A stretch of 64,000 bases of DNA. Origin: Desulfarculaceae bacterium. GTDB taxonomy: Bacteria; Desulfobacterota; Desulfarculia; Desulfarculales; Desulfarculaceae. The stretch's first letter is position 1; each line of letters starts with the position of its first letter. The translations under genes and the position numbers were made by a program. The notes under the pieces are model-generated. The model did no database searches. It was not told the DNA's origin and worked only from the letters and a program-made list of their open reading frames with translations. The stretch spans positions 62,001 through 126,000 of the forward strand of contig JAIPDO010000002.1 of NCBI GenBank assembly GCA_021737645.1. The letters are read 5' to 3'. Shown piece by piece: positions 1 to 58,334 of the stretch.

Positions 1-458
1 GAACCGCCTTGATGGCCCTATTCCTGGTGGCCTCCAACCGTTTTTACCCCGACTGGTACATGTACAAATACATTTGGAGCCGCCTTTTCTTCTCCCTGCG
101 CATGGCCTCTCTGGCCGTATTCCTCTACGCCGCCTTCGCCGCCCTGGCTTCCCTGGGCATGCGGCCCGAGGGGCGCACCACCTTGCTGCGCTGGTCGCGC
201 AACTTTCTCTTGCTCGGCACTGCGGTGTTTTTGGCCGGTGAGTTCAGCGGCTTCACCTGGCGCATGCAGTGGATGGGCGACTACTGGTGCTGGAACGCCA
301 ACTTCCTGGAGGCCACCCTGTTTTTCCTGTTGGTCACCGCAGCAGCCCACCTGCCCCCCTCCTGGGCGGCCAGGCCCCGCCTCCGGGCTACGGCCCAGGC
401 GGTGCCCGGCCTGCTGATGATCTGCCTGTTCATGACCTTCATGCTTTTGGAGCCGTGA
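1..458 (+). CDS. CcsA-like cytochrome c assembly membrane protein, C-terminal part
   Basis: The reading frame is open to the left edge (codons are readable from base 3), so the N-terminus lies outside the window. The visible 152 residues contain at least three hydrophobic segments and the tryptophan-rich stretch WMGDYWCWN, followed by a conserved histidine in AHLPPSWAARP. A full-length paralogue with the same layout lies at 4395-5144. CcsA/CcmC-type proteins handle haem for cytochrome c maturation; the canonical WGxxWxWD motif is altered here (N for D, no PKE). The stop codon overlaps the next start (TGATG), so it is translationally coupled to the ResB-like gene. The family call is fairly sure; the exact role of this divergent branch is not. 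Confidence 0.75.
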   Translation, partial: TALMALFLVASNRFYPDWYMYKYIWSRLFFSLRMASLAVFLYAAFAALASLGMRPEGRTTLLRWSRNFLLLGTAVFLAGEFSGFTWRMQWMGDYWCWNANFLEATLFFLLVTAAAHLPPSWAARPRLRATAQAVPGLLMICLFMTFMLLEP

Positions 459-1288
459 TGGAGCGTCTATCATCGCTGAAATTCACCCTGGGCAGCTTGA
501 GCGCGCTAATGATCTGGCTGGGCCTGGGGGTGTTCATGGGCCAGCCCAAGCTGCTGGCCGCCTCTTTCTTCGACATGAACCGCATGCTCATCCTGGACTG
601 GCTCCTGGGCCCGGCCTGGGCCCAGCCCATGGCCCCCTTGTGGTTCCTGGGCCTGTGCCTGGGGGTGGGGGTGATGCTTGTTAATCTAGGTTTTTGCACC
701 TTCACCCGCCTGCTGCCCCGCCTCAGGGCGGGCAACGCCCTCAAGGGCTGGCTGCTCACCCTGGTGCATTTGGTGATGCTGGTGGTGCTTTTGGGCCACG
801 GCGCGGAGATGGCCATGGGCCACAAGCAGGAAGAGCTGCGCATGCTCCCCGGCCAGACGGTGGCCCTGCCCGAAGGGCTCACCCTGGGCCTGGAGTCGGT
901 GCGTTTCGTCAGCGACCCCTCGGTGATCAACCTGCCCTACCGCAAGGCCCGCTGGACCTGGACCAGCACCAACTTCAAACCCAGGCAAAACTGGGCCAAA
1001 GTGGTTATCCGGCGCGGGGATGCGGTGGTGGCCCAGGGCGATCTGCGTATCCTGGAGCCCATGAAAATCGAGGGGCTGCGCCTTACCCTGGCCGGGTTCT
1101 ACTCGCCGAAAAACGAAAAACCGGCCCGGGTGGGGGTGCGCCTGGCCTTGGTGAAAAACCCTATGACCGCCTTGTTCTTCGTGGCCTACGGGCTGTGGGT
1201 GGTGCTTTACGCCGCCCTGGCCGTGGTCACCTGGCGCGGCGGCCCCAGCAACGGCTCGGCCCGCCCGGCCCAGGCCGTGGCCGTTTGA
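458..1288 (+). CDS. ResB/CcsB-like cytochrome c biogenesis protein
   Basis: The 276-residue membrane protein has hydrophobic segments near residues 10-30, 60-80 and 95-120, a soluble central part (about 120-235) and a C-terminal membrane helix (about 238-260). This is the ResB layout in shortened form: classic ResB is 400 residues or more. In system II cytochrome c biogenesis ResB partners CcsA to move haem across the membrane and attach it to CxxCH apocytochromes. The start ATG overlaps the stop of the CcsA-like gene and only 28 bases separate it from modA, so an operon ccsA-resB-modABC is likely. A paralogue lies at 3604-4398. Confidence 0.75.
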   Translation: MERLSSLKFTLGSLSALMIWLGLGVFMGQPKLLAASFFDMNRMLILDWLLGPAWAQPMAPLWFLGLCLGVGVMLVNLGFCTFTRLLPRLRAGNALKGWLLTLVHLVMLVVLLGHGAEMAMGHKQEELRMLPGQTVALPEGLTLGLESVRFVSDPSVINLPYRKARWTWTSTNFKPRQNWAKVVIRRGDAVVAQGDLRILEPMKIEGLRLTLAGFYSPKNEKPARVGVRLALVKNPMTALFFVAYGLWVVLYAALAVVTWRGGPSNGSARPAQAVAV

Positions 1289-1316: not shown

Positions 1317-2096
1317 ATGCCGCTTAACAAATACTTCCGTTTTTTGGCCGCCCTGGCCCTGGCCTGCTGCCTGAGCTTGGTTTCTTCCCTGGCCCTGGCC
1401 GCCAAACCGGTCATGGTATTCGCCGCCGCCTCCACCACCAACGCGGTGAGCGATGCAATCAAGGCCTATCAAGCCGCCGGCAAGGGCAAGGCGGTGGCAT
1501 CCTTTGCCTCCAGCTCCACCCTGGCCAAGCAGATCGCCCACGGCGCTCCGGCCCAGGTGTATCTGTCAGCCAATGAAAAGTGGATGAACTATTTGGCCGA
1601 AAAAAAGCTTCTGGAGCCGGGGACCAGGGTGAACTTGCTGGGCAACCGCTTGGTGCTCATCGCCCCGGCGGGGAGCAAGGAGCGCGGCCCCATCAAGGCG
1701 GGCATGCCCCTGATGCAGTGGCTGGGCGATGGCCGCCTGGCGGTGGGCGACCCTGACCACGTGCCCGCCGGCATGTACGCCAAGCAGGCGCTTAAGTCCC
1801 TGGGCCTGTGGGAAAAGGCGGAGCCCCGCCTGGCCCGCGCGGCCAACGTGCGCGCCGCCCTGGCCCTGGTGGAGCGCGGCGAGGCCCCCCTTGGCATCGT
1901 CTATTCCACCGACGCAGCCATCACCCCCAAGGTGACGGTGGTGGGCGTCTTCCCCGAAAGCAGCCACAAGCCCATCGTTTATCCCCTGGCTTTGCTCAAG
2001 GGACAGGCTAGGCCCCCTGCAAAGGCCTTCTGGCAGTTTATGCAGGGCGATGAGGCCAAGAGTGTGTTTAAAAAATACGGCTTCAGCGTACGTTGA
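1317..2096 (+). CDS. modA: Molybdate/tungstate ABC transporter substrate-binding protein ModA
   Basis: The 259-residue periplasmic binding protein has a signal peptide (about residues 1-28) followed by VFAAASTTNAVSDAI, the oxyanion-binding ASxT-type motif of ModA. Later YLSANEKWMNYL and the DPDHVPAGMYA motif are also typical. It captures molybdate or tungstate for ModBC; the sequence alone does not tell which anion. A strong ribosome site (GAGGAAGG) precedes the ATG. It is the first gene of modABC and is separated from modB by a hairpin-containing gap. Confidence 0.93.
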   Translation: MPLNKYFRFLAALALACCLSLVSSLALAAKPVMVFAAASTTNAVSDAIKAYQAAGKGKAVASFASSSTLAKQIAHGAPAQVYLSANEKWMNYLAEKKLLEPGTRVNLLGNRLVLIAPAGSKERGPIKAGMPLMQWLGDGRLAVGDPDHVPAGMYAKQALKSLGLWEKAEPRLARAANVRAALALVERGEAPLGIVYSTDAAITPKVTVVGVFPESSHKPIVYPLALLKGQARPPAKAFWQFMQGDEAKSVFKKYGFSVR

Positions 2097-2126
2097 GCGC
2101 CGAAGTCAAAACCGTAAACAAACCCC

Positions 2127-2144
2127 TCCCCACGCTCGTGGGGA
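2127..2144 (+). other. Intercistronic hairpin between modA and modB
   Basis: TCCCCACG and CGTGGGGA form a perfect 8-bp stem with a CT centre, 31 bases after the modA stop. There is no T-tract after it, so it is not a normal intrinsic terminator. A stem here could stabilise the modA message and favour binding-protein excess over permease, a common arrangement for ABC operons (inference). Confidence 0.45.
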
Positions 2145-2170
2145 AGGTCTTGGCATTTTAGGAAAGCGCC

Positions 2171-2881
2171 GTGGACAGCATCTTGGCCGCATTCAGCCTG
2201 ACTCCCCTTGAGAGCGAGGCGCTACGCCTGAGCCTTTGGGTCAGCCTGTGGGCCATGCTCGCGAGCCTGCCCCTGGCCGTCGGCGCGGCCTGGCTCTTGG
2301 CCAGGCACCGCTTCCCCGGCAAGACCCTTTTCGACGGCCTGCTGCACTTGCCCCTGGTGGTGCCGCCGGTGGTCACCGGCTATCTGCTCTTGGTGGTTTT
2401 CGGCCGCCGGGGCCTGGTGGGGGCCTGGCTGCACGACCAGTTGGGCATCACCTTTGCCTTCGACTGGAAGGGCGCGGCCCTGGCGGCGGCGGTGATGGCC
2501 TTCCCGCTCATGGTGCGGGCCATCCGCCTTAGCCTGGAGGCGGTGGACCGGGGCCTGGAGCAGGCGGCGCACACCCTGGGAGCAGGTCACTGGCGGGTGT
2601 TTTTCACTATCACCATGCCGCTGACCCTGCCGGGCATCCTGAGCGGCATGGTCCTGGCCTTTGCCAGGGGCCTGGGCGAGTTCGGGGCCACCATCACCTT
2701 TGTCTCCAACATTCCCGGCCAGACCCGCACCCTACCCCTGGCCCTGTACAGCGTGTTGCAGTCGCCCGGCGGCGAGGCCGCCGCCCAGCGCCTGTGCGTC
2801 ATCTCCATCATTCTGGCGCTCATCGCCCTGCTGGTCTCCGAGCTACTGGCCCGCCGGGTGCAGAAGCGGCTGAGGGGGTGA
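2171..2881 (+). CDS. modB: Molybdate ABC transporter permease ModB
   Basis: The 236-residue integral membrane permease has about five to six hydrophobic segments and the cytoplasmic EAA loop (EQAAHTLGAGHWRVFFTITMPL region, about residues 124-145) that docks onto the ATPase. The LVVPPVVTGYLLL segment is characteristic of ModB. It starts with GTG, preceded by an AGGAAAG ribosome site. It lies 4 bases before modC. Confidence 0.93.
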   Translation: MDSILAAFSLTPLESEALRLSLWVSLWAMLASLPLAVGAAWLLARHRFPGKTLFDGLLHLPLVVPPVVTGYLLLVVFGRRGLVGAWLHDQLGITFAFDWKGAALAAAVMAFPLMVRAIRLSLEAVDRGLEQAAHTLGAGHWRVFFTITMPLTLPGILSGMVLAFARGLGEFGATITFVSNIPGQTRTLPLALYSVLQSPGGEAAAQRLCVISIILALIALLVSELLARRVQKRLRG

Positions 2882-2885
2882 GGTC

Positions 2886-3593
2886 ATGCTGTCGGTGAGC
2901 TTGAAAAAGCGCCTGGGCGAGTTGGACGTGGAGGCCTCCTTCGGCCGGACCGGGCCGGGGGTCACCGCCCTGTTCGGCCCCTCGGGGGCGGGCAAGACCT
3001 CGCTGGTGAACATGCTGGCCGGGCTGCTCACCCCGGATTACGGGCGCGTGATCTTGGAAGGCCGGGTGCTCTTCGACTCCCAGGCCAAGATCAACCTGCC
3101 GCCCCAGCGCCGCCGGGTGGGCTACGTGTTTCAAGAGGGCCGCCTGTTCCCTCACCTGTCGGTGAAAGGCAACCTGGACTATGGCCGCCGCTTGGCTCCC
3201 AAGGGTAGCGCCTGGGCCTCCTGGGATCAGGTGGTGGATCTGCTGGGACTGGAGGAGCTATTGGAGCGACGGCCCGCCAAGCTCTCGGGCGGCGAGAAGC
3301 AGCGGGTGGCCATTGGCCGGGCCCTGTTGGCCAGCCCCCGCCTGCTGTTGTTGGACGAGCCGCTGGCCTCTTTGGACGCCCAGCGCAAGGACGAGGTGCT
3401 GGGCTACTTGAGCAAGCTCACCGGGCACCTGGCCATCCCGGTGATCTACGTTAGCCACCAGCCCGGCGAGATCCTGCGCCTGGCCGACAGCGTGGTGCGG
3501 GTGGAGCGGGGCCGGGTGCGGGGCATAGACGATCTGGAAGGCTTCCGCCGCCTGCTGGACTCCTGGCCCAAGGAGCGCCTTTGGCTGAGCTAA
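2886..3593 (+). CDS. modC: Molybdate ABC transporter ATP-binding protein ModC, lacking the TOBE domain
   Basis: The 235-residue ATPase has Walker A GPSGAGKTS (about residues 31-39), a Q-loop (VFQEGRLFPHLSV), the signature LSGGEKQR, Walker B LLLLDEP and the switch histidine (VSHQ). It powers molybdate uptake through ModB. Typical ModC is about 350 residues with a C-terminal molybdate-binding TOBE/MOP domain; here the protein ends soon after the nucleotide-binding domain, so TOBE-based feedback by molybdate should be absent. It converges with the ResB-like gene on the minus strand with a 10-base gap and no obvious terminator. Confidence 0.92.
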   Translation: MLSVSLKKRLGELDVEASFGRTGPGVTALFGPSGAGKTSLVNMLAGLLTPDYGRVILEGRVLFDSQAKINLPPQRRRVGYVFQEGRLFPHLSVKGNLDYGRRLAPKGSAWASWDQVVDLLGLEELLERRPAKLSGGEKQRVAIGRALLASPRLLLLDEPLASLDAQRKDEVLGYLSKLTGHLAIPVIYVSHQPGEILRLADSVVRVERGRVRGIDDLEGFRRLLDSWPKERLWLS

Positions 3594-3603
3594 GGCCCCA
3601 GCG

Positions 3604-4398
3604 CTAGTCCAGGGCCGGGCCGCCGCGCTTGCGGCGCAGGTCCAGTATGAGCAGGAGCAGCCAGCAGGCCATGGCCGCGCCGTAGGCCGCGAAAAATGGC
3701 TTGGCCAGGGGGCGGCGGCTCACGTTGACCACCGCGCCCACCACCGGCTGCGGACCGGGGCGGCAGAAGTAGCCCACCAGGTTGATGCGCAGACCGTCGG
3801 CCTCCCAGGGCTGCATGAAGGCCACCCTGCCCTGGCCCAACTCCAGCCCGTCGCGGCTCAGGGCCACCTCGGCCCAGCCCGGTCCACGGGGGAAGCGGGG
3901 CCTGCGGCGGGTCTGCTTTTGGGCTGCCTGGCGCAGGCAGTCGGCCATGGGCTGGGGCTCCAGATGGGCTTGGCGAAGGCTCAGCGCCGCGCCGTCGGGC
4001 AGGGTCAGGCTCCGGCCGGGCAGCAGGCGCTGATGCTGGCGCTGATAGCCCACCACCAGGGTGGCCCCGTGGGCCAGCATGACCAACAGCACCGCAAGGT
4101 GCAGGGCCAGGAGCAGGGCGTTGCGCCAGGACCAGTTGCGCACCAGCTTGCTCAGGCTGCAACAGAGCAGGTTGAGGGCCAAAAGGCCGCTGAGGGCCAA
4201 TAGGCCCAGCACCCAGAACATGCCCAGGGCCGGGGCCTGGCCCCACTGGGAGGGGTGCACCAGCAAGTGGCCCTCGGCCAGGGCGCGCAGCAAGGGAGCC
4301 AGGGAGGGGCTGAAGGCCATCTGCACGCCCCAGGCGGTCCACAGCACCAGGGCGGCCATGGCCGCCACGGCCAGGCGCAGGCTGGATAGGGCCTTCAT
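3604..4398 (-). CDS. ResB/CcsB-like cytochrome c biogenesis protein, second copy
   Basis: This 264-residue protein is a paralogue of the ResB-like protein at 458-1288: hydrophobic segments at the N-terminus (about 8-30, 60-80, 95-115), a soluble middle, and a C-terminal helix ending in RRKRGG. The start ATG overlaps the TGA of the upstream CcsA-like gene (ATGA), which fixes this start over a longer in-frame extension. It would form a CcsA/ResB-type haem delivery pair. Sequence divergence from the first copy suggests different client proteins (inference). Confidence 0.72.
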   Translation of the reverse strand: MKALSSLRLAVAAMAALVLWTAWGVQMAFSPSLAPLLRALAEGHLLVHPSQWGQAPALGMFWVLGLLALSGLLALNLLCCSLSKLVRNWSWRNALLLALHLAVLLVMLAHGATLVVGYQRQHQRLLPGRSLTLPDGAALSLRQAHLEPQPMADCLRQAAQKQTRRRPRFPRGPGWAEVALSRDGLELGQGRVAFMQPWEADGLRINLVGYFCRPGPQPVVGAVVNVSRRPLAKPFFAAYGAAMACWLLLLILDLRRKRGGPALD

Positions 4399-5144
4399 CT
4401 TCCCATTCCCATCTGGTGGTTGAGCACCACCAGGTTCAGGGCCACCCCAGGGGCGGCCCCCACCATCAGACGCAACCAGGGCCGGGCGGCCCAACGGGGG
4501 GGCAGGTGCAATCCAAGACCCATGAGCAGCAGCAGCGCGGTGGAGGAAAGAAAGCCAGCGTTCCACTGCCAGAAATCGCCCAGCCAGCCGTAGCTCCACC
4601 AAGCACCCACCAGCTCACCGGCCATGAAGGCGCCCCAGCCGCTCAACAGGGCCAAACGCCCCCGGGCCGCCACGCCGTTTATCCCGCCCCGCCAGGCGGC
4701 CAGATGGCAGGCCGCCGCATACAGCAGCAGGGCCTGGGCGGCCAGGCGCAGTTCAAAGAATATGGGCATCCACACATATCCGGGAATGAGGTTGATAGGC
4801 GCCGCGCCCAACTTGGCGAAGAACAGCCACAGCATCAGGGCCGCGCCCAGGCCCCAGCTCCAGGCGGCCACGGCGGCGCGGCCCTGGAACAGGTCCCACA
4901 TGGCCAGAAGCCCCAGCCACAGGCCCACCACCATGAGGCTCTCGTAGGGGCCGTAAAAGGCGATGCGCCCCGTGGACCAGGACACCACGCCCACCCCCAG
5001 CAGGCAACCGGCCAAGCCCAGCCCCCCCGCCCCGGCGGCCACACGTTGCCAACCCCTAGCCCCGGCCAAGGCGGCCAGGCAGAACCCGCCCAGGGCGCAG
5101 GCAAAGGCCACCGCGCACAACATTCCCACTACTTCAGCCGCCAA
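4395..5144 (-). CDS. CcsA-like cytochrome c assembly membrane protein, second copy
   Basis: The 249-residue protein has about seven to eight predicted membrane segments and the tryptophan-rich WLGDFWQWNAGF motif with a following histidine (LGLHLPPRWAARP), collinear with the fragment at 1-458. CcsA/CcmC-family proteins bind and hand over haem. The start is a TTG 3 bases after the permease stop, chosen because AGGAGAGG lies about 9 bases upstream; a later in-frame ATG (residue 8) is the alternative. It overlaps the ResB-like gene and probably shares a transcript with the upstream permease. Confidence 0.75.
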   Translation of the reverse strand: MAAEVVGMLCAVAFACALGGFCLAALAGARGWQRVAAGAGGLGLAGCLLGVGVVSWSTGRIAFYGPYESLMVVGLWLGLLAMWDLFQGRAAVAAWSWGLGAALMLWLFFAKLGAAPINLIPGYVWMPIFFELRLAAQALLLYAAACHLAAWRGGINGVAARGRLALLSGWGAFMAGELVGAWWSYGWLGDFWQWNAGFLSSTALLLLMGLGLHLPPRWAARPWLRLMVGAAPGVALNLVVLNHQMGMGR

Positions 5145-5147
5145 TGG

Positions 5148-6512
5148 CTAGCCCCTCTCCTGCTCCCGTTGGTTGCGGCGGCGAAACACCAGATACAGCG
5201 CCACGCCGACGGCCAGGGTGAGAGCCCCCGGCAGGGCCCGCCAAGGGTCCCCGGCCAGGGAAAAAATGATGATCCATGCGTTGGACCCTATGAACAACAG
5301 CGGCACCCAGGGGTAGAGGGGAACCCGAAAGGTGTCCGGCGGGCCCAGGCGGCGGCGCAGCACCAAAAGCCCCGCCACGCTCAGGGCCGCGAAAAGCGAC
5401 AAGGTGAAACCGATATAGAACAACAGCGCCTCAAAGGAGGCCGAAAGCACCAGCAGGGCGGCGATGGCCGCTTGCAGCCACACCGAATTGGCCGGCACCC
5501 CGGAGCCGGGGCGCACCCGGCCCAGAGCCGGAAAAAACACCCGGTCCTGGGCCATGGCGTAGTAGATACGCGGCCCGGTGAGGGTCATGGCCCCCAGGCT
5601 GGAGAGCAGGCACAGAGCCACCAGCAGGCTGAACACCCGCCCACCCACGGGCCCCAGCAGGGCCTGGGCGGTGAGGGAGCCTATCTCCTTGACCCCGGCC
5701 ATCTGCTCCGGGGGCACGGCGGCCAAATAGGACAGGTTGATCAAAAGGTACAGGGCCGTGACCAGGCCGGTGCCGGTGAGCAGGGCCAGGGGCAGGTTGC
5801 GCTGGGGGTTTTTGATCTCCCCGCCCAGGTAGGCGGCGGCGTTGAAACCACTGTAGGCAAAGGACACGAACACCAGGGCCGTGGCCACCCTGGCGGCGGC
5901 CGGGCCCGGCGCGGCCAGGGCCTGGCTCAAAAAGCCCTGGCCGTCCCAGGCTCCCAGGCCCGCCGCGATGAGCCCCACCAGCACCAGCAGCTTGAAGCCG
6001 GTGAGCAGATTTTGCACCCGCACCCCCACCCGCAGGCTGGTAGCGTGCAACAGGGTGAAGCCCAGCAGAATGGCCAGGGCCAGCAGGGACTCCCCGGACA
6101 ACGACAAGCCACCCAGGGACAGGGACCAGCCCGCCGCATGGGGCCAGGCCCTGAGGAGATAGCCCGCCCCGGCCACCGCCGCCGCGGCGATGGGGGCGGA
6201 AAACCCCACCACCAACGATATCCAGCCGGAGAGAAAGCCCCACAGGGGACCGAAGCTCTGGCGCAAAAAGACGTATTCCCCGCCCGCCTGGGGATAGCGG
6301 GCTCCCAGTTCGGCGTAGCTCAAGGCCCCGGCCAGGGCGATGATTCCCCCGGCCAGCCAGCAGAGCATGAACAGGGAAGGGCTTCCCGCCTGGGCCAAAA
6401 TAAAGCCCCCGGCGGTGAAAATGCCCGTGCCCACCATGTTGGCCACTATGACCATGGCCGCGCTGTAGGGCCCCAGGCTGCGCCTCAACGCGTCTTGCTT
6501 GGCGTTTGCCAC
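5148..6512 (-). CDS. APC-superfamily amino acid permease
   Basis: The 454-residue polytopic protein has about 12 membrane helices. ANMVGTGIFTAGGF (about residues 24-37) is the unwound helix-1 substrate site of APC transporters, and YAELGARYPQAGGEYVFLR is the conserved helix-2/3 loop. It resembles LAT-type/YjeH-like amino acid permeases; the substrate cannot be told. It is divergent from the SUOX-haem fusion gene and reads directly into the second CcsA/ResB pair, an odd association that may be only transcriptional. Confidence 0.88.
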   Translation of the reverse strand: MANAKQDALRRSLGPYSAAMVIVANMVGTGIFTAGGFILAQAGSPSLFMLCWLAGGIIALAGALSYAELGARYPQAGGEYVFLRQSFGPLWGFLSGWISLVVGFSAPIAAAAVAGAGYLLRAWPHAAGWSLSLGGLSLSGESLLALAILLGFTLLHATSLRVGVRVQNLLTGFKLLVLVGLIAAGLGAWDGQGFLSQALAAPGPAAARVATALVFVSFAYSGFNAAAYLGGEIKNPQRNLPLALLTGTGLVTALYLLINLSYLAAVPPEQMAGVKEIGSLTAQALLGPVGGRVFSLLVALCLLSSLGAMTLTGPRIYYAMAQDRVFFPALGRVRPGSGVPANSVWLQAAIAALLVLSASFEALLFYIGFTLSLFAALSVAGLLVLRRRLGPPDTFRVPLYPWVPLLFIGSNAWIIIFSLAGDPWRALPGALTLAVGVALYLVFRRRNQREQERG

Positions 6513-6648: not shown

Positions 6649-6658
6649 GATGATCATC

Positions 6659-8416
6659 ATGCGCAAGTTATTAATTTTGGCTACGATTTTGGTATTGATT
6701 TCCGCCGCCGCCGCCATGGCCCTGGCGGCCCACAAACAGATGGGCCCCATGCTCACAGTGAGCGGGCTGGTTAAGCAGCCGCTGCGCCTGAGCATGGCCG
6801 ACCTGGGGCGCCTTTCCTGGGCGCGGGTCAAATGCAACGACATCAAAAGCGACGGCTCCTTCCACGGCTGCTTCTGGCTGCAAGGGGTGCCGCTGCGCGA
6901 CATCCTGGAGTTGGCCCAGATCGGCAAGGATGGTCACGGCTTCAACAAGGCGGTGGACCTGGCGGTGGTGGTTAAAAACGCCCAAGGCCAGCAGGTCACC
7001 GTCTCCTGGGGCGAGATATTCCACCGCAACCCAGGCGAGGCCATCCTGGCCCTGTCCTCCACGCCGGTGCGCCCCAAGAAAAACTGCAAGGCCTGCCACG
7101 AGCCGGACGTCTATGAAGACCTGATAAAGCAGCTCGACCGCAAGTTGGGCCTGCCTAAGCTGGTAATGACCAGCGACTTCGCCAGCGACCGGGCTCTGGA
7201 AGACGTGGTCTCCCTGCGGGTGGTGGAGCCGGTCAAGGTGCCCCAAGGCCCCCGGCCCAAGACGCTCTACTCTCCCACGATCACCGTGGTGGGCTCGGAC
7301 GGCAAAGAGCACAAGCTGGACAAGCTGCCCGCCCTGCACCGGCGCACCATCCTGGCCAACCAGGTGGGCGAGGGCAAAGGCTTTCACGGGCGTCCCCACT
7401 TCAGCGGGGTGGCCCTGGCCGACCTATTGAAGCACTTCAAGATCAGCGGCGACGACCAGAGCGCGGTGGTGATCAGCGCGCCGGACGGTTACGCCTCCCT
7501 GGTTTCCTGGGCCGAGCTGTTCCGGGGGCCGTTGGGCGGGCGCATCATCGTGGCCGACCAGATGGACGGCAAGCCCATTAAGACCAACGGGCGCTTCGCC
7601 CTGATCCTGCCCGATGACCTGTGGGCCGACCGCTGGGTCAAATCCGCCGGCAAGATCCAGACGGTGCGCATCGCCAACCAACCCCGGCTCACCGTGATCG
7701 GCATGGGCTGCGGCGACAGCGACCTGCTCACCCTGGAGGCCCTGGACGCCCTGGCCCAGGCCGACGTGCTGGTGGCCCCCAAGGACCTTCAAAAGCGCTT
7801 CGCCGCTTTCCTGGCGGGCAAGCCGGTGATTTTCGACCCCATGGCCGCCGCCCACAAAAAGCCCCTCAAAAAGCAGATGGACGCCCACAAGGACGCCAAG
7901 GCCCGGCACATGGATAAACAGCAGAGCGCCGACTCGGCCGAGCTTATCAAGGCCCAATTGGCCAAGGGCAAGAGCGTGGCCGTGCTGGACTGGGGCGATC
8001 CCATGGTCTACGGCTCCTGGCGCTGGCTCAAGGACGTGTTCCCCAAAGGACAGATCCGCTTCGTCTCCGGGCTTAGCGCCTTCAACGCGGGCTCGGCGGC
8101 CGTGGGGCGGGACATAGCCTGCAACGGAGCCATCGCCATCACCGACCCCTTCACCCTGTTCAAGCAGCCCGAGGTTCTAAAGTCCCTGGCCGCCAAGGGC
8201 GCGACGGTGGCGATCTTCATGGCCATGCCCAAATTCTCCCAGGTAATCCAGGCGGTGCAGGCCGCCTACCCCCCCGACACCCCCACGGCGGTGGTCTACC
8301 GGGCGGGCATGCAAACCCAACAGGTGGTCAAAAGCCGCCTGGATCAAGTCTTAGAGAAAAACAAGGACCGTGAACGCTGGCTAGGCGTTGTTTACGTGGG
8401 GCCTTGTTTGCGATAA
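6659..8416 (+). CDS. Exported fusion: two SUOX-like domains, c-type haem site, tetrapyrrole methylase-like domain
   Basis: The start at 6659 is preferred over ATG 6650 because TAGGA precedes it by 8 bases; this gives 585 residues beginning with a signal peptide (1-24). Residues about 27-190 and 200-340 resemble the sulfite-oxidase/molybdopterin-binding (oxidoreductase) fold, with repeated GVxLxDxL patterns. A CKACH motif at 143-147 is a canonical c-type haem attachment site. Residues about 344-585 match the tetrapyrrole (corrin/porphyrin) methylase family: VIGMGCGDSDLLTLEALDAL and GDPMVYG (446-452). That family uses SAM in the cytoplasm, so its presence on an exported protein is unexpected; it may bind a tetrapyrrole instead. 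A TonB-dependent receptor follows after 43 bases. The function is unknown. Confidence 0.8.
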   Translation: MRKLLILATILVLISAAAAMALAAHKQMGPMLTVSGLVKQPLRLSMADLGRLSWARVKCNDIKSDGSFHGCFWLQGVPLRDILELAQIGKDGHGFNKAVDLAVVVKNAQGQQVTVSWGEIFHRNPGEAILALSSTPVRPKKNCKACHEPDVYEDLIKQLDRKLGLPKLVMTSDFASDRALEDVVSLRVVEPVKVPQGPRPKTLYSPTITVVGSDGKEHKLDKLPALHRRTILANQVGEGKGFHGRPHFSGVALADLLKHFKISGDDQSAVVISAPDGYASLVSWAELFRGPLGGRIIVADQMDGKPIKTNGRFALILPDDLWADRWVKSAGKIQTVRIANQPRLTVIGMGCGDSDLLTLEALDALAQADVLVAPKDLQKRFAAFLAGKPVIFDPMAAAHKKPLKKQMDAHKDAKARHMDKQQSADSAELIKAQLAKGKSVAVLDWGDPMVYGSWRWLKDVFPKGQIRFVSGLSAFNAGSAAVGRDIACNGAIAITDPFTLFKQPEVLKSLAAKGATVAIFMAMPKFSQVIQAVQAAYPPDTPTAVVYRAGMQTQQVVKSRLDQVLEKNKDRERWLGVVYVGPCLR

Positions 8417-8459
8417 CCCCCAAACGAGCAAACCGAGAAAAAGAGAGGCTGATTTAGAC

Positions 8460-10538
8460 ATGAAGCTGGTTAAATTACTACTTACGGTTCTTGTGACACT
8501 GGCCATGGTCTGCCCCGCCCTGGCCCAAGAGGCCAAGACTGAAACGGCTGGTAAAAACTACCAGGTATACGAACTCGGCGAGATCGTGGTATCGGGCCAG
8601 AACGACGCGGTGAACAAGGTGACCGACACCTACTCCATCACCGCCGAGGACATCACCGACAACCACGCCCTCACCGTGCCCGAGGCCCTTTCCTACGCTC
8701 CGGGCATCACCGTGACCACCGGGCGCAAAAACGAGCCCGAAATCCGCATCCGGGGCTTCAACCAGGAAGAAGCCCTGATCCTCATCGATGGCGTGCCTTA
8801 CTATGAAACCAACTACGGCAAGCTGAACCTCAATCAGCTTCCCACCGAGATGATCGCCCGAATCGACATCGTCAAGGGCGCGGCCTCGGTGCTCTACGGC
8901 TCCAACGCCATGGCCGGCGTCATCAACATCATCACCAAAAAGCAGGGCATCAAGCCGTCACTGAGCGCCACGGCCGAAGTGGGCGAGGACGGCGCCTATC
9001 GCCTTAGCGCCTCCCACGGCAACAGCCTGGGCAAGTTCAAGTACTGGTTCAACGTGAACCGGCGCGAGGCCGACGGCTGGTACATGTCCGACGACTATTC
9101 TCCCAAAGTGGGCAGCACCGTGCGCAAGCCCGGCGGCACCACCAAGGAGGTGATCCAGGGCGAGGGCGAGCGCCTCAACTCCGGTTATGCCCAGACCAGC
9201 GTATGGTTCAAGGCCGGGGTGGACGTGGCCAAGGACTCCGCCTATTACCTGAGCGCCTACCTGCTGGACTCCAGGTGGGGCATGCCTCCCTCCACCACCT
9301 CCAACAACGTATTCCCCAGCCGCCCCGCCTTCTCCCAGTACGGAACCATGTCCAAATATCAGGACTGGGGCCTGGACCTGAGCGGCGAGCAGGCCATCAC
9401 CAGCAGCTTCAAGATGCGCGGCAAGCTGTTCTACCACAACCATGTGGACGACTACGTGTCCTATTCCGACAAGAGCTACAGCGATGTCATCTCCACCAGC
9501 CGCTTCAAGGACTATCTGGCCGGCGGCTCGTTGTTCGGAGACTGGGAAATTGTTCCCGAGGACACCCTGCGCTTCTCGGCCCACTATCGGGGCGACAGCC
9601 ACAAAGAGCGCAACGACGAATATCTGCCCTTTGCCGAGAGCTTCTCCTACACCGGCTCCCTGGGCGTGCAAAACGACTGGACACCCTTGGAAAACTTCGT
9701 GATCATCGCGGGTGTGAGCTACGACTGGTTCGACGTGACCAAGGCCGAGGCCGTGGAAACCGACAAGAGAGGCAACTACGACGGCACCGAAAGCCTGGAC
9801 ACCCCCAGCACCACCGACAGCTTCAACCCCATGGTCGGCGCCACCTACACCTTCGTGGACCAGACCCGGCTGTTCGGTTCGGTGGCCCGCAAGACCCGCT
9901 TCCCCACCCTGCAGCAGCTTTTCAGTTCCAAGAGCGGCAACTCGGAGTTGGACCCCCAAAAGAGCACCAACTACACCCTGGGCGTTAGCCGTCCCTTCGG
10001 CAAGATGTTCTACGGCGAGTTCTCGGTGTTTTACAACGACATCGAGGACCGCATCTCCCGGGACGGCCCGTACGTAGACTCCATTTACCGCAACTACAGC
10101 AAGGTCAAGACCTACGGCTTCGAAATTATCGGCGAGCTGACTCCCCTGGAGGGCTTGCTCCTCAGGGTGGGCTACACCTACATGAAGGCCAAGGATGATA
10201 GTGACGGCCGGGTGACCGACGACGTGCTCGGCGCGCCGGAAAACAAGGTGGACATCAAGGTGCAGTACATCATTCCCAAGGTGCGCACCAAGCTGGACTT
10301 CATCGGCGTGTACCTGGGCGCCCAGTACGACCAACTGCCCACCGCCTCCAGCCCGGACACGGATGTCTTGGAGACCAGCGGCTACTTCCTGGCCAACTTC
10401 AAGGTCACCCAGCCCATCTGGGACAAGTTCGAGGCCTTTGGCTATGTGAGCAACATCCTGGACCGCGATTATGAGTCCGAGAGCGGCTATCCCGGCCAGG
10501 GCCGGGCGTTTTGGGTCGGTGTAAGCGCCAAATTCTAA
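8460..10538 (+). CDS. TonB-dependent outer membrane receptor
   Basis: The 692-residue protein has a signal peptide (about 1-23), a TonB-box-like stretch (YELGEIVVSG), a plug domain (ALTVPEALSYAPGI, IRGFNQEEALILIDGVPYY, VKGAASVLYGSNAMAGVINIITKK) and a beta-barrel that ends in phenylalanine (WVGVSAKF), as outer membrane proteins do. The start at 8460 is chosen because the signal peptide begins there. Such receptors import siderophores, cobalamin, haem or metal chelates; the plug resembles the BtuB/CirA group but the ligand is not decidable. It lies 43 bases after the SUOX-haem-methylase gene and ends at a strong terminator, so the two likely form an operon. Confidence 0.92.
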   Translation: MKLVKLLLTVLVTLAMVCPALAQEAKTETAGKNYQVYELGEIVVSGQNDAVNKVTDTYSITAEDITDNHALTVPEALSYAPGITVTTGRKNEPEIRIRGFNQEEALILIDGVPYYETNYGKLNLNQLPTEMIARIDIVKGAASVLYGSNAMAGVINIITKKQGIKPSLSATAEVGEDGAYRLSASHGNSLGKFKYWFNVNRREADGWYMSDDYSPKVGSTVRKPGGTTKEVIQGEGERLNSGYAQTSVWFKAGVDVAKDSAYYLSAYLLDSRWGMPPSTTSNNVFPSRPAFSQYGTMSKYQDWGLDLSGEQAITSSFKMRGKLFYHNHVDDYVSYSDKSYSDVISTSRFKDYLAGGSLFGDWEIVPEDTLRFSAHYRGDSHKERNDEYLPFAESFSYTGSLGVQNDWTPLENFVIIAGVSYDWFDVTKAEAVETDKRGNYDGTESLDTPSTTDSFNPMVGATYTFVDQTRLFGSVARKTRFPTLQQLFSSKSGNSELDPQKSTNYTLGVSRPFGKMFYGEFSVFYNDIEDRISRDGPYVDSIYRNYSKVKTYGFEIIGELTPLEGLLLRVGYTYMKAKDDSDGRVTDDVLGAPENKVDIKVQYIIPKVRTKLDFIGVYLGAQYDQLPTASSPDTDVLETSGYFLANFKVTQPIWDKFEAFGYVSNILDRDYESESGYPGQGRAFWVGVSAKF

Positions 10539-54973: not shown

Positions 54974-55705
54974 GTGCCGAGACCCCGCAAATGCCGTTGG
55001 GTGCAGAACGAGCCCCCCATAGCCTATTTCAAACCCAGGGGCGTACCCATGCGGGAGCTCACCGAGGTGAACCTGACCGTGGAGGGCTGCGAGGCCCTGC
55101 GCCTGGCCGACCTGGAGGGCCTGAGCCACCAGGAAGCGGCGGGGCGCATGAAGGTCTCGCGCCACACCTTCGGCCGGGTGTTGGCCGTGGCCCGCAGGGC
55201 CGTGGCCGAGGCGGTGGTCTTGGGCCAGGCGCTACGCATCGACGGCGGGGATTATGCCGTTCGCGGGCGCAAAAAGCAGCTCTCACCCCAGCCGGACGCC
55301 TGCGGCGCTCCGGCAACCAAACTGGAGAACCAAATGAGCAAGATCGCCATTAGCAGCGAAGGACCCACCCTGGAAGACCTGCTCGATCCCCGCTTCGGCC
55401 GGGCCGGCGGATTCGTGCTTTATGACCCTGAGACCAAAAAAATCGAATACATCAACAACGGCACCGCCCAGAGCATGAACCAGGGGGCCGGCATCCAGGC
55501 CGCCGAGACGGTGGCGGGGGCCGGGGCCAAGGTGCTGCTCACCGGTTACGTGGGTCCCAAGGCCTTCCGCGCTCTGGAAGCGGTGGGCATCAAGGTGGGC
55601 CAGGACCTCGAAGGCCTCACCGTGGGCCAAGCCATCGAGCGTTATGAAAGCGGTCAGGTGGAGATGGCCGACGGCCCCAACCGCGAGCAAGGGGGCCGCG
55701 CATGA
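54974..55705 (+). CDS. DUF134 HTH protein fused to a NifX/NifB-like domain
   Basis: The 243-residue protein starts with GTG behind AGGAGA. Residues 1-105 are a DUF134 domain (MPRPRKCRWV, IAYFKPRGVPM, LRLADLEGLSHQEAAGRMKVSRHTFGRVLAVARRAVA). Residues about 120-235 form a dinitrogenase-cofactor (NifX/NifB C-terminal) fold: MSKIAISSEGPTLEDLLDPRFGRAGGFVLYD and GYVGPKAFRALEAVGI. NifX-type domains bind FeMo-type or Mo-Cu-S clusters, so this could be a cluster-sensing regulator. Its stop overlaps the next start (ATGA). Confidence 0.88.
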   Translation: MPRPRKCRWVQNEPPIAYFKPRGVPMRELTEVNLTVEGCEALRLADLEGLSHQEAAGRMKVSRHTFGRVLAVARRAVAEAVVLGQALRIDGGDYAVRGRKKQLSPQPDACGAPATKLENQMSKIAISSEGPTLEDLLDPRFGRAGGFVLYDPETKKIEYINNGTAQSMNQGAGIQAAETVAGAGAKVLLTGYVGPKAFRALEAVGIKVGQDLEGLTVGQAIERYESGQVEMADGPNREQGGRA

Positions 55706-56580
55706 TACTGGCCGTTGCCAGCGGCAAGGGAGGCACCGGCAAGACCACGGTGTCGGCCTCCCTGGCCTCGGTGTGGCCCACCCCGGTGCTGGCCGTGGAC
55801 CTGGACGTGGAAGAGCCCAACCTGCACCTATTCCTTAACCCGGAGATCCAGGGAGCGGAAAAGGCCTACATGGAGGTGCCCCTGGCCGATGAGTCCAAGT
55901 GCACCGCCTGCGGGGCCTGCTCGGACATCTGCCAGTTCAAGGCCATCAGCCTGCTGGGCGACGTGCTTATCAGCTTCCCGGAGATGTGCCACGGCTGCGG
56001 GGCCTGCCTTGAGGTTTGCCCCGCCGGAGCCCTTACCCCGGACCGCCGGGAATTGGGTGAGGTTAGCTGGGGCCAAGCGGGCAAGATCGGCTTTCTCCAA
56101 GGCCGCCTCCGGGTGGGCGAGGCCATGAGCCCTCCGTTGATGCGCTTCGTGCGGGCCAAGGCGGCAGAGCTTGCCGCCAAGAGCGGGGCGGACATGATCG
56201 TGGACTGCCCGCCGGGGGTCAGCTGCCCGGCGGTGAACGCGGTGATGGACGCGGACACCATTCTGTTGGTTACCGAGCCCACTCCCTTCGGGCTCTACGA
56301 CTTCCGCCTGGCCCACCAGGCCTTCGCCCCCATGAACAAGCCCATGGCCGCGGTTATCAACCGGGCCGGGTTGGGCGACGACGAGGTGCGCCACTACTGC
56401 CAAAGGCACGACCTGCCCATCCTGGCCGAGATACCCTTTGACCGCGAGGTGGCCCAGGCCTATTCCCAGGGCCAGGTGGTGGCCCAGGCCTCCCCGGCCA
56501 TGCGGGTGGCTTTCGAGGACCTGGCCGCCCAGGTTCGTTGCGTGGGCCCCAATTCTCCCTGCGAGGCGGCCCATGCCTGA
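55702..56580 (+). CDS. MinD/Mrp-family ATPase with an inserted 2x[4Fe-4S] ferredoxin domain
   Basis: The 292-residue ATPase has the deviant Walker A GKGGTGKTT (8-16), two 4Fe-4S motifs (C67, C70, C73, C77 and C96, C99, C102, C106), and DMIVDCPPGVSCPAVNAV. Such proteins occur as tandem pairs in the Orp (orange protein) clusters of Desulfovibrio, where they associate with a Mo-Cu-S protein. It overlaps the next ATPase gene by 8 bases. The exact role (cluster assembly or cell-division positioning) is unsettled. Confidence 0.9.
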   Translation: MILAVASGKGGTGKTTVSASLASVWPTPVLAVDLDVEEPNLHLFLNPEIQGAEKAYMEVPLADESKCTACGACSDICQFKAISLLGDVLISFPEMCHGCGACLEVCPAGALTPDRRELGEVSWGQAGKIGFLQGRLRVGEAMSPPLMRFVRAKAAELAAKSGADMIVDCPPGVSCPAVNAVMDADTILLVTEPTPFGLYDFRLAHQAFAPMNKPMAAVINRAGLGDDEVRHYCQRHDLPILAEIPFDREVAQAYSQGQVVAQASPAMRVAFEDLAAQVRCVGPNSPCEAAHA

Positions 56581-57457
56581 AATATTGGTAATAAGCGGCA
56601 AGGGAGGCACGGGCAAGACCTCGGTCACCGGAGCCCTGGCCCATCTGGCCCATAATAAAATTATCTGCGACCTGGACGTGGACGCGCCGGATCTGCATCT
56701 GCTGCTCCAACCCCAAGCCCGCCAGGTCCATCAGTTCTACTCGGGCAACGAGGCGATCATCGACCCGGAACTGTGCACCTCATGCGGCCTGTGCCAGGAA
56801 AAATGCCGCTTCGAGGCCATTGTGGAGGGCGAGGACGCCTTCCGGGTGGACCCCCTGAAGTGCGAAGGCTGCAAGCTGTGCGTAACCCTGTGCCCGGAAG
56901 AGGCCATCGCCTTCCCTCAGCGCCACTGCGGCACCTGGCAGGTGTCCGACACCCGCATGGGGCCCATGGTCCACGCCCAGCTCTTCCCGGGCCAGGAAAA
57001 CTCGGGCCGCCTGGTGGCGCTCTTGCGCCAGCACGCCCGGGAACTGAGCCGGGAAAACGGCTATGAATTAATCCTGAGCGACGGCCCTCCGGGCATCGGC
57101 TGCCCGGTCATCAGTTCCATGTCGGGCACCGACCTGGCGGTGGTGGTCACCGAGCCCACCCCCTCGGGCCGCCACGACCTGGAGAGGGTGTTGGAGCTTT
57201 GCCGCCACTTCAAGGTCCCGGCCGGGGTCATCATCAACAAGTGCGACCTCAACTTGGACCAGAGCAAGGCCATAGCCGACTACTGCGCCCGAGAGGGCCT
57301 GGAGCTTTTAGCCGAGTTGCCCTTTGATCCGGCAATGGTCCGGGCCATGGTGCAGGGACAGGTGATCACCGAATATCAGCAGAACGGCCTGGCCGAGGAC
57401 TTGGCCCAGGCCTGGGAAAAAATAATAAAGATGGCCGACGCTAAAAAGGCGGCCTGA
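56573..57457 (+). CDS. MinD/Mrp-family ATPase with an inserted 2x[4Fe-4S] ferredoxin domain, second copy
   Basis: The 294-residue protein is a paralogue of the preceding one: Walker A GKGGTGKTS (9-17), C68, C71, C74, C78 and C97, C100, C103, C107, and ELILSDGPPGIGCPVISSMSGTDLAVVVTEPT. The start ATG lies inside the end of the upstream gene. The two ATPases probably form a heterodimer, as deviant-Walker ATPases dimerise across the nucleotide. Confidence 0.9.
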   Translation: MPEILVISGKGGTGKTSVTGALAHLAHNKIICDLDVDAPDLHLLLQPQARQVHQFYSGNEAIIDPELCTSCGLCQEKCRFEAIVEGEDAFRVDPLKCEGCKLCVTLCPEEAIAFPQRHCGTWQVSDTRMGPMVHAQLFPGQENSGRLVALLRQHARELSRENGYELILSDGPPGIGCPVISSMSGTDLAVVVTEPTPSGRHDLERVLELCRHFKVPAGVIINKCDLNLDQSKAIADYCAREGLELLAELPFDPAMVRAMVQGQVITEYQQNGLAEDLAQAWEKIIKMADAKKAA

Positions 57458-57513
57458 AGTAAACCAACGACGGCCGCCGAGGCCGCCAAGGCAAAACCTG
57501 AGGAGACAATACA

Positions 57514-57891
57514 ATGACTGGATTAGTAGCACTGCCCTCCAACGCTCCCGGCGGCATGGACGCGGGCCTGGGAGCCCACTTTGGCCACTGCGACCTGTAC
57601 ACCCTGGTCGAGGTGGAGGACGGCCAGATCAAAGACACCAAGGTGGTGCCCAACGTGCCCCACCAGCAGGGCGGCTGCATGGCTCCGGTGCAATACTTGG
57701 CCGGGCAAGGCGTCAAAGTGCTCATCGCCGGTGGCATGGGCATGCGTCCCTTGATGGGCTTCAACCAAGTGGGCATCGACGTGTACTTCGGCGGCGAATC
57801 CACCACGGTCAACGAGGCGGTCCAGGCCCTGCTGCAGGGCAACTTGCCCCGCTTCACCCAGCAGTTCACCTGTGGCGGCGGCGGGCAATAG
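57514..57891 (+). CDS. NifX/NifB-like dinitrogenase cofactor-binding family protein
   Basis: The 125-residue protein has the NifX-type core: VALPSNAPGGMDAGLGAHFGHCDLYTLVEVEDG and VLIAGGMGMRPLMGFNQVGIDVYFG, with a cysteine-containing glycine-rich tail (FTCGGGGQ). It corresponds to the small NifX-like/orange-protein component of Orp-type clusters. It likely binds a metal-sulfur cluster. The GAGGAG ribosome site is 12 bases upstream. Confidence 0.88.
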   Translation: MTGLVALPSNAPGGMDAGLGAHFGHCDLYTLVEVEDGQIKDTKVVPNVPHQQGGCMAPVQYLAGQGVKVLIAGGMGMRPLMGFNQVGIDVYFGGESTTVNEAVQALLQGNLPRFTQQFTCGGGGQ

Positions 57892-57935
57892 CCCCGGCCC
57901 TGTTGATAACACCAAAGTCAAACAGGGAGGCCCAG

Positions 57936-58334
57936 GTGTCCAGCCATGATATTCCCTTGCCAGGGCAGGTGGACCAGCGCTTTCTGGCCCACGCCCAGCT
58001 CCCCCGCAACCTGGGGAGCCTGAGCGACGCCACCGGCCAAGCCACCGAGGTGGGCCAGTGCGGGGACTCGATGGATGTATTCATCAAGGTGAACGGCGAT
58101 ACCATAACCGACATAAAGGCCATGCCCCACGGCTGCCTCTACACCGTGGTATGCGCCAGCGCCCTGGGCGATCTGGCCCAGGGCCGCAGTTTGGACGAAG
58201 CCCTTTTGCTGGAGCCCGAGGACATCGAAAAGGAACTGGGCGGCCTGCCCGAAGACCACAAGCACTGCGCCCGTTTGGCGGTGAACACCTTGGGTGAGGC
58301 CATCGCCGACCACTACCGCCGCAAGGGTGCATAG
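57936..58334 (+). CDS. IscU/NifU-like iron-sulfur cluster scaffold protein
   Basis: The start is a GTG behind GGGAGG, giving 132 residues. The three scaffold cysteines are present: C42 (GQCGDSMDVFI), C67 (HGCLYTVVCAS) and C111 (HKHCARLA), matching IscU/NifU N-terminal positions. It offers a site for transient cluster assembly and supports the view that the cluster builds or handles FeS or MoFeS centres. No IscS is encoded nearby. Confidence 0.88.
   Translation: MSSHDIPLPGQVDQRFLAHAQLPRNLGSLSDATGQATEVGQCGDSMDVFIKVNGDTITDIKAMPHGCLYTVVCASALGDLAQGRSLDEALLLEPEDIEKELGGLPEDHKHCARLAVNTLGEAIADHYRRKGA

Follow-up and report, generated by a model that had tools for sequence, protein, structure and literature searches.

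In a 64,000-nucleotide stretch of the genome of a Desulfarculaceae bacterium (contig JAIPDO010000002.1, positions 62,001 to 126,000; hereafter the window), one gene encodes an exported protein that combines two SUOX-like domains, a predicted haem c attachment motif and a C-terminal tetrapyrrole methylase (TP_methylase) domain. The gene of a TonB-dependent receptor follows it. The fusion was confirmed to be real and recurrent. We propose, with moderate confidence, that the protein works in the periplasm, where it processes a metal chelate or a metal-organic cofactor taken up by a TonB-dependent system.

The open reading frame (ORF) of the fusion, 6650-8416 (+), holds 588 amino acids and opens with an ATG at 6650. 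The ATG at 6659 (MRKLLILATILVLISAAAAMALA) is the likelier start, and the orthologs use the same one. Counted from it, the CKACH motif occupies residues 143-147 (146-150 in the 588-residue numbering), as stated in an earlier note on this DNA. That note, which was made from the sequence alone, also described the two SUOX-like domains, the C-terminal TP_methylase, an exported N-terminus and an adjacent TonB receptor, and all of these were recovered. Pfam searches placed TP_methylase (PF00590) at residues 346-567 with 139.8 bits (cut-off 27.8), covering profile positions 1-211 of 212. Oxidored_molyb (PF00174) matched two stretches with 39 bits (cut-off 24), more strongly in the second. None of the NCBIfam equivalogs scored above its cut-off against the window protein, the best being cobI_cbiL with 85.2 bits (cut-off 163), and the best solved structural match of the methylase domain was CbiF/CobM. 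CKACH lies behind the signal peptide, the mark of a c-type cytochrome, and haem attachment there is predicted. A Cytochrome P460 match (E=0.17) was dismissed, and an AlphaFold2 model built with one relative was set aside (mean pLDDT 38.5).

Orthologs with 56-82% identity and the same gene order were found in five other genomes of the window's genus, and the fusion occurs in many other families; a chance or frame artefact was therefore dismissed. We screened 395 genomes of the phylum with a profile (A3) built on the exported methylase domain. Its scores split cleanly, with members above 195 bits and other TP_methylases below 150 bits. Full-length SUOX-SUOX-methylase fusions numbered 17, the window's and 16 further ones, across about ten bacterial families as labelled in the genome set. 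All 17 begin with a signal peptide; CxxCH, where present, sits at about residue 136-156, and four fusions have lost it. A maximum-likelihood tree placed the methylase domains of the fusions in a single clade (97/90; present in 98% of bootstrap trees) amid other exported members, and most simply the fusion would have arisen once. Three canonical sequences fall near the fused clade on a long branch, which leaves the rooting of the whole exported family unsettled.

The fusions belong to a larger family of exported TP_methylases, apparently one without earlier description. A simple hydropathy test gave a signal-peptide-like N-terminus for 66 of the 78 family members, compared with 0 of 23 canonical domains; the 12 negatives include broken ORFs, members with another upstream domain and missed signal peptides. 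Six of the 12 are probably cytoplasmic (L061, L115, L103, L121 and the minus-strand members of L051 and L052). Five of their loci have FecCD-type ABC importer genes; the remaining one ends at a contig edge. Four of the six form one nested clade in the tree, adjoining the other two. Since the location of the methylase thus tracks that of the import step, we argue that the methylase acts on imported material. L061 lies in the window's own genome (contig C66), where it is a second family locus, with a TonB receptor, FecBCD-type genes, a class I methyltransferase and FmdE as neighbours. A plasmid search returned CobM-type or unannotated partial matches only.

Linkage with TonB receptors was tested in ten genomes in which all plug genes had been mapped. 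There, 20 of 23 family loci lay within 7 kb of a TonB plug gene, against 1.04 expected (P=5.6e-26, the true significance being lower because the loci are related to one another). Recurrence of the pairing in other genomes, on which the earlier note's reading depended, was borne out. Of the only three plug genes in the window's genome, the first belongs to the window, the second is near L061 and the third adjoins two cobalamin riboswitches. A receptor adjoins 21 of the 24 loci with SUOX domains (SUOX loci). TonB, ExbB or ExbD genes are present at some family loci, so that energised import is likely. In genome G190, a single strand carries a row of CcsA/ResB-like genes, receptor, fusion, TonB, ExbB, ExbD, an exported FmdE and a TupA-like protein. 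Between TonB and ExbB in this row lies a 611-residue protein (L104:3672-5504, -) that matches nothing in Pfam; its N-terminus is signal-peptide-like. FmdE-domain proteins with such N-termini were seen near several family loci (L104:1730-2488, -; L064:2717-3727, +; L065:7358-8038, -); export of FmdE was unexpected.

Of all neighbours, an APC permease is the one whose presence tracks the exported methylase most closely. The permeases of SUOX and SUOX-free loci grouped in one clade, to which most other APC proteins of these genomes do not belong. Within the window's family, this clade was present in all 12 genomes with an exported methylase, the count for one of them (G003) resting on a contig-edge fragment (L036), and in none of the eight without. 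Genome G011 has a receptor and a SUOX-haem protein, but neither methylase nor permease, and G070, from another family, shows the same pattern. The permease is also absent from G001 and G006, whose sole member is the non-fused one. In the phylum sample, the corresponding counts were 31 of 38 and 9 of 357 genomes (p about 3e-31; table counted by hand, then tested).

Neighbouring genes divide the loci into two branches and offer pointers to metals in both, with nickel/cobalt genes in the SUOX-free branch and molybdenum/tungsten (Mo/W) transporters at some SUOX loci. Nickel/cobalt markers (DUF4198, NikL, CbiM) occurred at 28 of 52 SUOX-free and 0 of 24 SUOX loci (p=1e-6; per family p=0.0024). CcsA/ResB-like genes had the opposite distribution, with 14 of 24 SUOX loci and 1 of 52 others (p=4e-8; per family 0.003). 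TupA-like proteins were found at some loci. A second domain fusion, DUF4198-TP_methylase in G287 (L118:2416-3978, -; DUF4198 136.7 bits, TP_methylase 144.8 bits), points at nickel/cobalt. Several TonB receptors beside SUOX-free members have an in-frame TGA in the context RLPCP-U-DYYWWARC (L054, L055, L063, L064, L096, L098, L103, L117, L119, L121 and L123), probably a selenocysteine site of the NCBIfam PCPU type. At L035 (G007), an ortholog of the window protein with 69% identity has PEAWS in place of CKACH, a natural haem-less variant, and the locus has no CcsA/ResB pair beside the permease. A joint loss of haem and CcsA/ResB pair, convincing at G007, was dropped as an explanation, since the haem-less L041, L111 and L133 keep CcsA/ResB-like genes.

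Features of the window and riboswitches at two related loci (positions in the window unless a locus is named)
Feature	Position	Strand	Basis or remark
Exported SUOX-SUOX-haem-TP_methylase fusion	6659..8416	+	585 amino acids from ATG 6659
Sec-type signal peptide (MRKLLILATILVLISAAAAMALAA)	6659..6730	+	sequence; hydropathy test (canonical domains as control)
SUOX-like domain 1, no conserved Mo-ligating Cys, haem segment near C-terminal end	6734..7234	+	boundaries approximate
CKACH, predicted covalent haem c attachment motif	7085..7099	+	CxxCH in 13/17 full-length fusions
SUOX-like domain 2, invariant D279-G280-Y281 in 17/17	7274..7684	+	profile match, alignment
TP_methylase domain, GDP motif in 20/20 fused domains	7685..8413	+	Pfam profile, residue mapping
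TonB-dependent receptor	8460..10538	+	Plug 93.9 bits, barrel 130.1 bits (Pfam)
APC amino-acid-type permease, methylase-associated clade	5148..6512	-	Pfam, tree
CcsA-like membrane protein	4395..5123	-	clusters with CcsA-like neighbours at other SUOX loci; no Pfam match itself
ResB-like membrane protein	3604..4398	-	weak assignment
ModA molybdate-binding protein	1317..2096	+	306 bits, cut-off 253
ModB molybdate permease	2171..2881	+	371 bits, cut-off 262
ModC molybdate ATPase	2886..3593	+	312.8 bits, cut-off 285
Second CcsA-like (12-458) and ResB-like (458-1288) pair	12..1288	+	Cytochrom_C_asm 20.9 bits, below cut-off
Cobalamin riboswitches, upstream of receptor and tandem methylase	L045:5491-5678; L049:12179-12369	-	

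In the proposed uptake system, the receptor (8460-10538) would bring a metal complex into the periplasm, where the exported fusion would take it over. The two SUOX-like domains may serve as a ligand- or pterin-binding scaffold, and the covalent haem c, where present, may alter the redox state of the imported complex. The methylase domain, through an S-adenosylmethionine (SAM)-type pocket, would act on the organic moiety of the complex; in the simplest case, methylation of a donor atom would free the metal. The co-inherited APC permease may carry the small-molecule partner of the methylase through the inner membrane, this partner being either SAM/S-adenosylhomocysteine (SAH) or the ligand set free. 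In the window's genus, freed molybdate would then pass to ModABC next door. The analysis establishes export signals, architecture, recurrence, receptor linkage, a single origin of the fusion and permease co-occurrence. From the linkage we infer the uptake role, and with it the handling of an imported complex. Methylation, the direction and cargo of the permease and the identity of the metal are speculative, and the weakest step is Mo as candidate metal in the window's genus, which is taken from the adjacent ModABC.

Several points weigh against this proposal. Haem redox chemistry is not essential, as four of the 17 fusions have no haem site, and at many SUOX-free loci an APC permease is missing from the vicinity. 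Mo/W transport genes are found at 6 of 24 SUOX and 3 of 52 SUOX-free loci (p=0.024), but this link loses significance when collapsed by family (p=0.62) and is only suggestive. To our knowledge, the periplasm has no SAM supply, and APC-type permeases are not known as metal importers.

Residues of the methylase domain were mapped on NirE numbering, with the roles of SAM-side and uroporphyrinogen-side residues taken from PMC4731766. As judged from this alignment, the 20 fused domains keep the SAM side and have a rebuilt uroporphyrinogen side. On the SAM side, D105 is found in 20/20, T133 as S in 18/20, Y185 as F in 20/20 and M186 in 17/20. On the other side, K102 is replaced by D/E and R111 by S/G (both 20/20), E114 is mostly aromatic and H161 is lost. 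Since NirE is a single enzyme, the loss of its substrate residues counts against uroporphyrinogen but not against tetrapyrroles in general. A subset of the single exported members has GNP instead of GDP, and the pocket is not intact in all. Neither SUOX domain has an invariant Cys (9 and 17 sequences compared); there is no canonical Mo site, and identity as a molybdoenzyme was rejected. The Asp-Gly-Tyr of SUOX domain 2 aligns with the Asn-Asp-Tyr that PruR pterin-binding proteins carry (PMC13259868), but the match is weak (PDB 7KOS, E=0.95), which makes pterin binding a lead only. Of the Tyr and Trp by which PruR proteins contact pterin, the Trp (in D-R-W) is not invariant here.

One alternative takes true periplasmic SAM-dependent methylation as the main function, with the APC permease as a SAM/SAH exchanger that feeds the exported methylase. 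The fused domains retain SAM-side residues, with GDP and the F at position 185 in all of them and two other residues in 17-18 of 20, even though GNP replaces GDP in some single exported members. Permeases of the clade are found with exported methylases in both branches, but not in window-family genomes that have a cytoplasmic methylase only or the SUOX-haem protein alone; uptake of a released ligand, however, fits this co-occurrence equally well. APC carriers are often antiporters for amino-acid-like molecules, but we know of no bacterial APC carrier of SAM. We consider this function unlikely. The same low probability is given to its specific form, in which chelator methylation by periplasmic SAM-dependent methyltransferases would release or remodel TonB-imported metal complexes, with SAM fed by an APC-type SAM/SAH exchanger.

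Tetrapyrrole or corrinoid scavenging, which is close to the earlier note, is equally doubtful. Here, a non-catalytic methylase domain would bind a corrinoid, porphyrin or haem imported by the receptor, and CcsA/ResB-like proteins, frequent at SUOX loci, would handle haem. The TP_methylase fold family does bind tetrapyrroles, but the uroporphyrinogen-binding residues are gone, and the conserved SAM-side residues would be needless in a pure tetrapyrrole binder. A cobalamin riboswitch precedes the receptor and a tandem exported methylase at two related SUOX-free loci only (G008, G010), which suggests B12 control in the tandem-methylase branch. No such riboswitch was found at the window locus or at any SUOX locus scanned, and riboswitch control of the window locus was dropped. 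BtuB proteins were the top-scoring solved receptors for the window TonB protein, but the match is generic and lies mostly in the plug. Scavenging also leaves the dedicated APC permease unexplained. Overall, the earlier interpretation is partly supported: general uptake of a metal or cofactor complex is supported, the specific tetrapyrrole idea is not. A corrinoid link exists at those two loci only, and the permease had been overlooked. Recruitment of the methylase to bind a corrinoid or porphyrin instead of methylating is not borne out: the SAM-side residues are kept, and the NirE uroporphyrinogen residues have given way to acidic, small or aromatic side chains.

A role outside uptake, as a redox enzyme or electron carrier of the periplasm with the receptor as an incidental neighbour, is very unlikely: the SUOX fold and haem c do recall sulfite dehydrogenases, and the CcsA/ResB-like genes suggest cytochrome maturation, but both SUOX domains are without the Mo-ligating Cys, haem is absent in 4/17, and receptors adjoin nearly all SUOX loci, with TonB/ExbB/ExbD genes at some.

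Among the other genes of the window, the ModABC operon (1317-3593) is genuine, as all three proteins exceed an equivalog cut-off. The CcsA and ResB labels in the window were assigned by eye and have weak Pfam support, the proteins scoring below the cut-off or not matching at all; at a different SUOX locus, the CcsA-like neighbour does exceed the Pfam cut-off (Cytochrom_C_asm, 46.5 bits). Far downstream, at 55001-58334, we noted two MinD-like ATPases in a row with small proteins that resemble NifX or NifU, all assigned by eye.

With the known TP_methylases (PF00590: CbiF/CobM, CbiL/CobI, CobA/SUMT/NirE, CysG), the window family shares the full-length domain and the SAM-side motifs. It differs from them in being exported, in scoring below every NCBIfam equivalog cut-off, in its replaced uroporphyrinogen-side residues and in its own fused clade. 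Enzymes of the TP_methylase family are taken as cytoplasmic because SAM is cytoplasmic. The fusion resembles PruR (PF00174; PMC13259868) in having a periplasmic SUOX-like domain without the Mo-ligating Cys, with Asp-Gly-Tyr weakly aligned to Asn-Asp-Tyr, but it has two tandem domains, haem c and a methylase, and no DcpA-type partner was seen. SUOX-free members, with a receptor and inner-membrane metal transport genes beside them, recall TonB micronutrient uptake with Ni/Co energy-coupling factor (ECF) transporters (NikL/CbiM/DUF4198) or FecBCD. We know of no counterpart, among described TonB or Ni/Co uptake systems, of a methylase-fold protein with a dedicated APC permease. Receptors beside SUOX-free members also resemble selenocysteine TonB receptors (NF049945, FCYXU; NF049947, PCPU), as they carry the in-frame TGA or match these models. 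The window receptor does not score as one (PCPU 80.9 bits, cut-off 800; FCYXU 49.1, cut-off 825). The text of PMC12013277 makes no mention of the methylase neighbour, and in the literature covered here the selenocysteine TonB receptors have no assigned function. In the open-access literature searched, no paper connects a tetrapyrrole methylase to a TonB receptor in this way; an earlier mention elsewhere is possible.

A recurrent exported branch tied to TonB receptors, metal transport genes and one permease clade implies either periplasmic SAM chemistry or reuse of the fold as a periplasmic ligand handler, and it would be new in either case. If periplasmic methylation is true, methylation outside the cytoplasm would be a step of metal acquisition. 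For the selenocysteine TonB receptors, the association hints at a partner protein and at the class of metal involved. It also makes the acquisition of Mo, W, Ni, Co or corrinoids by anaerobes directly accessible to experiment.

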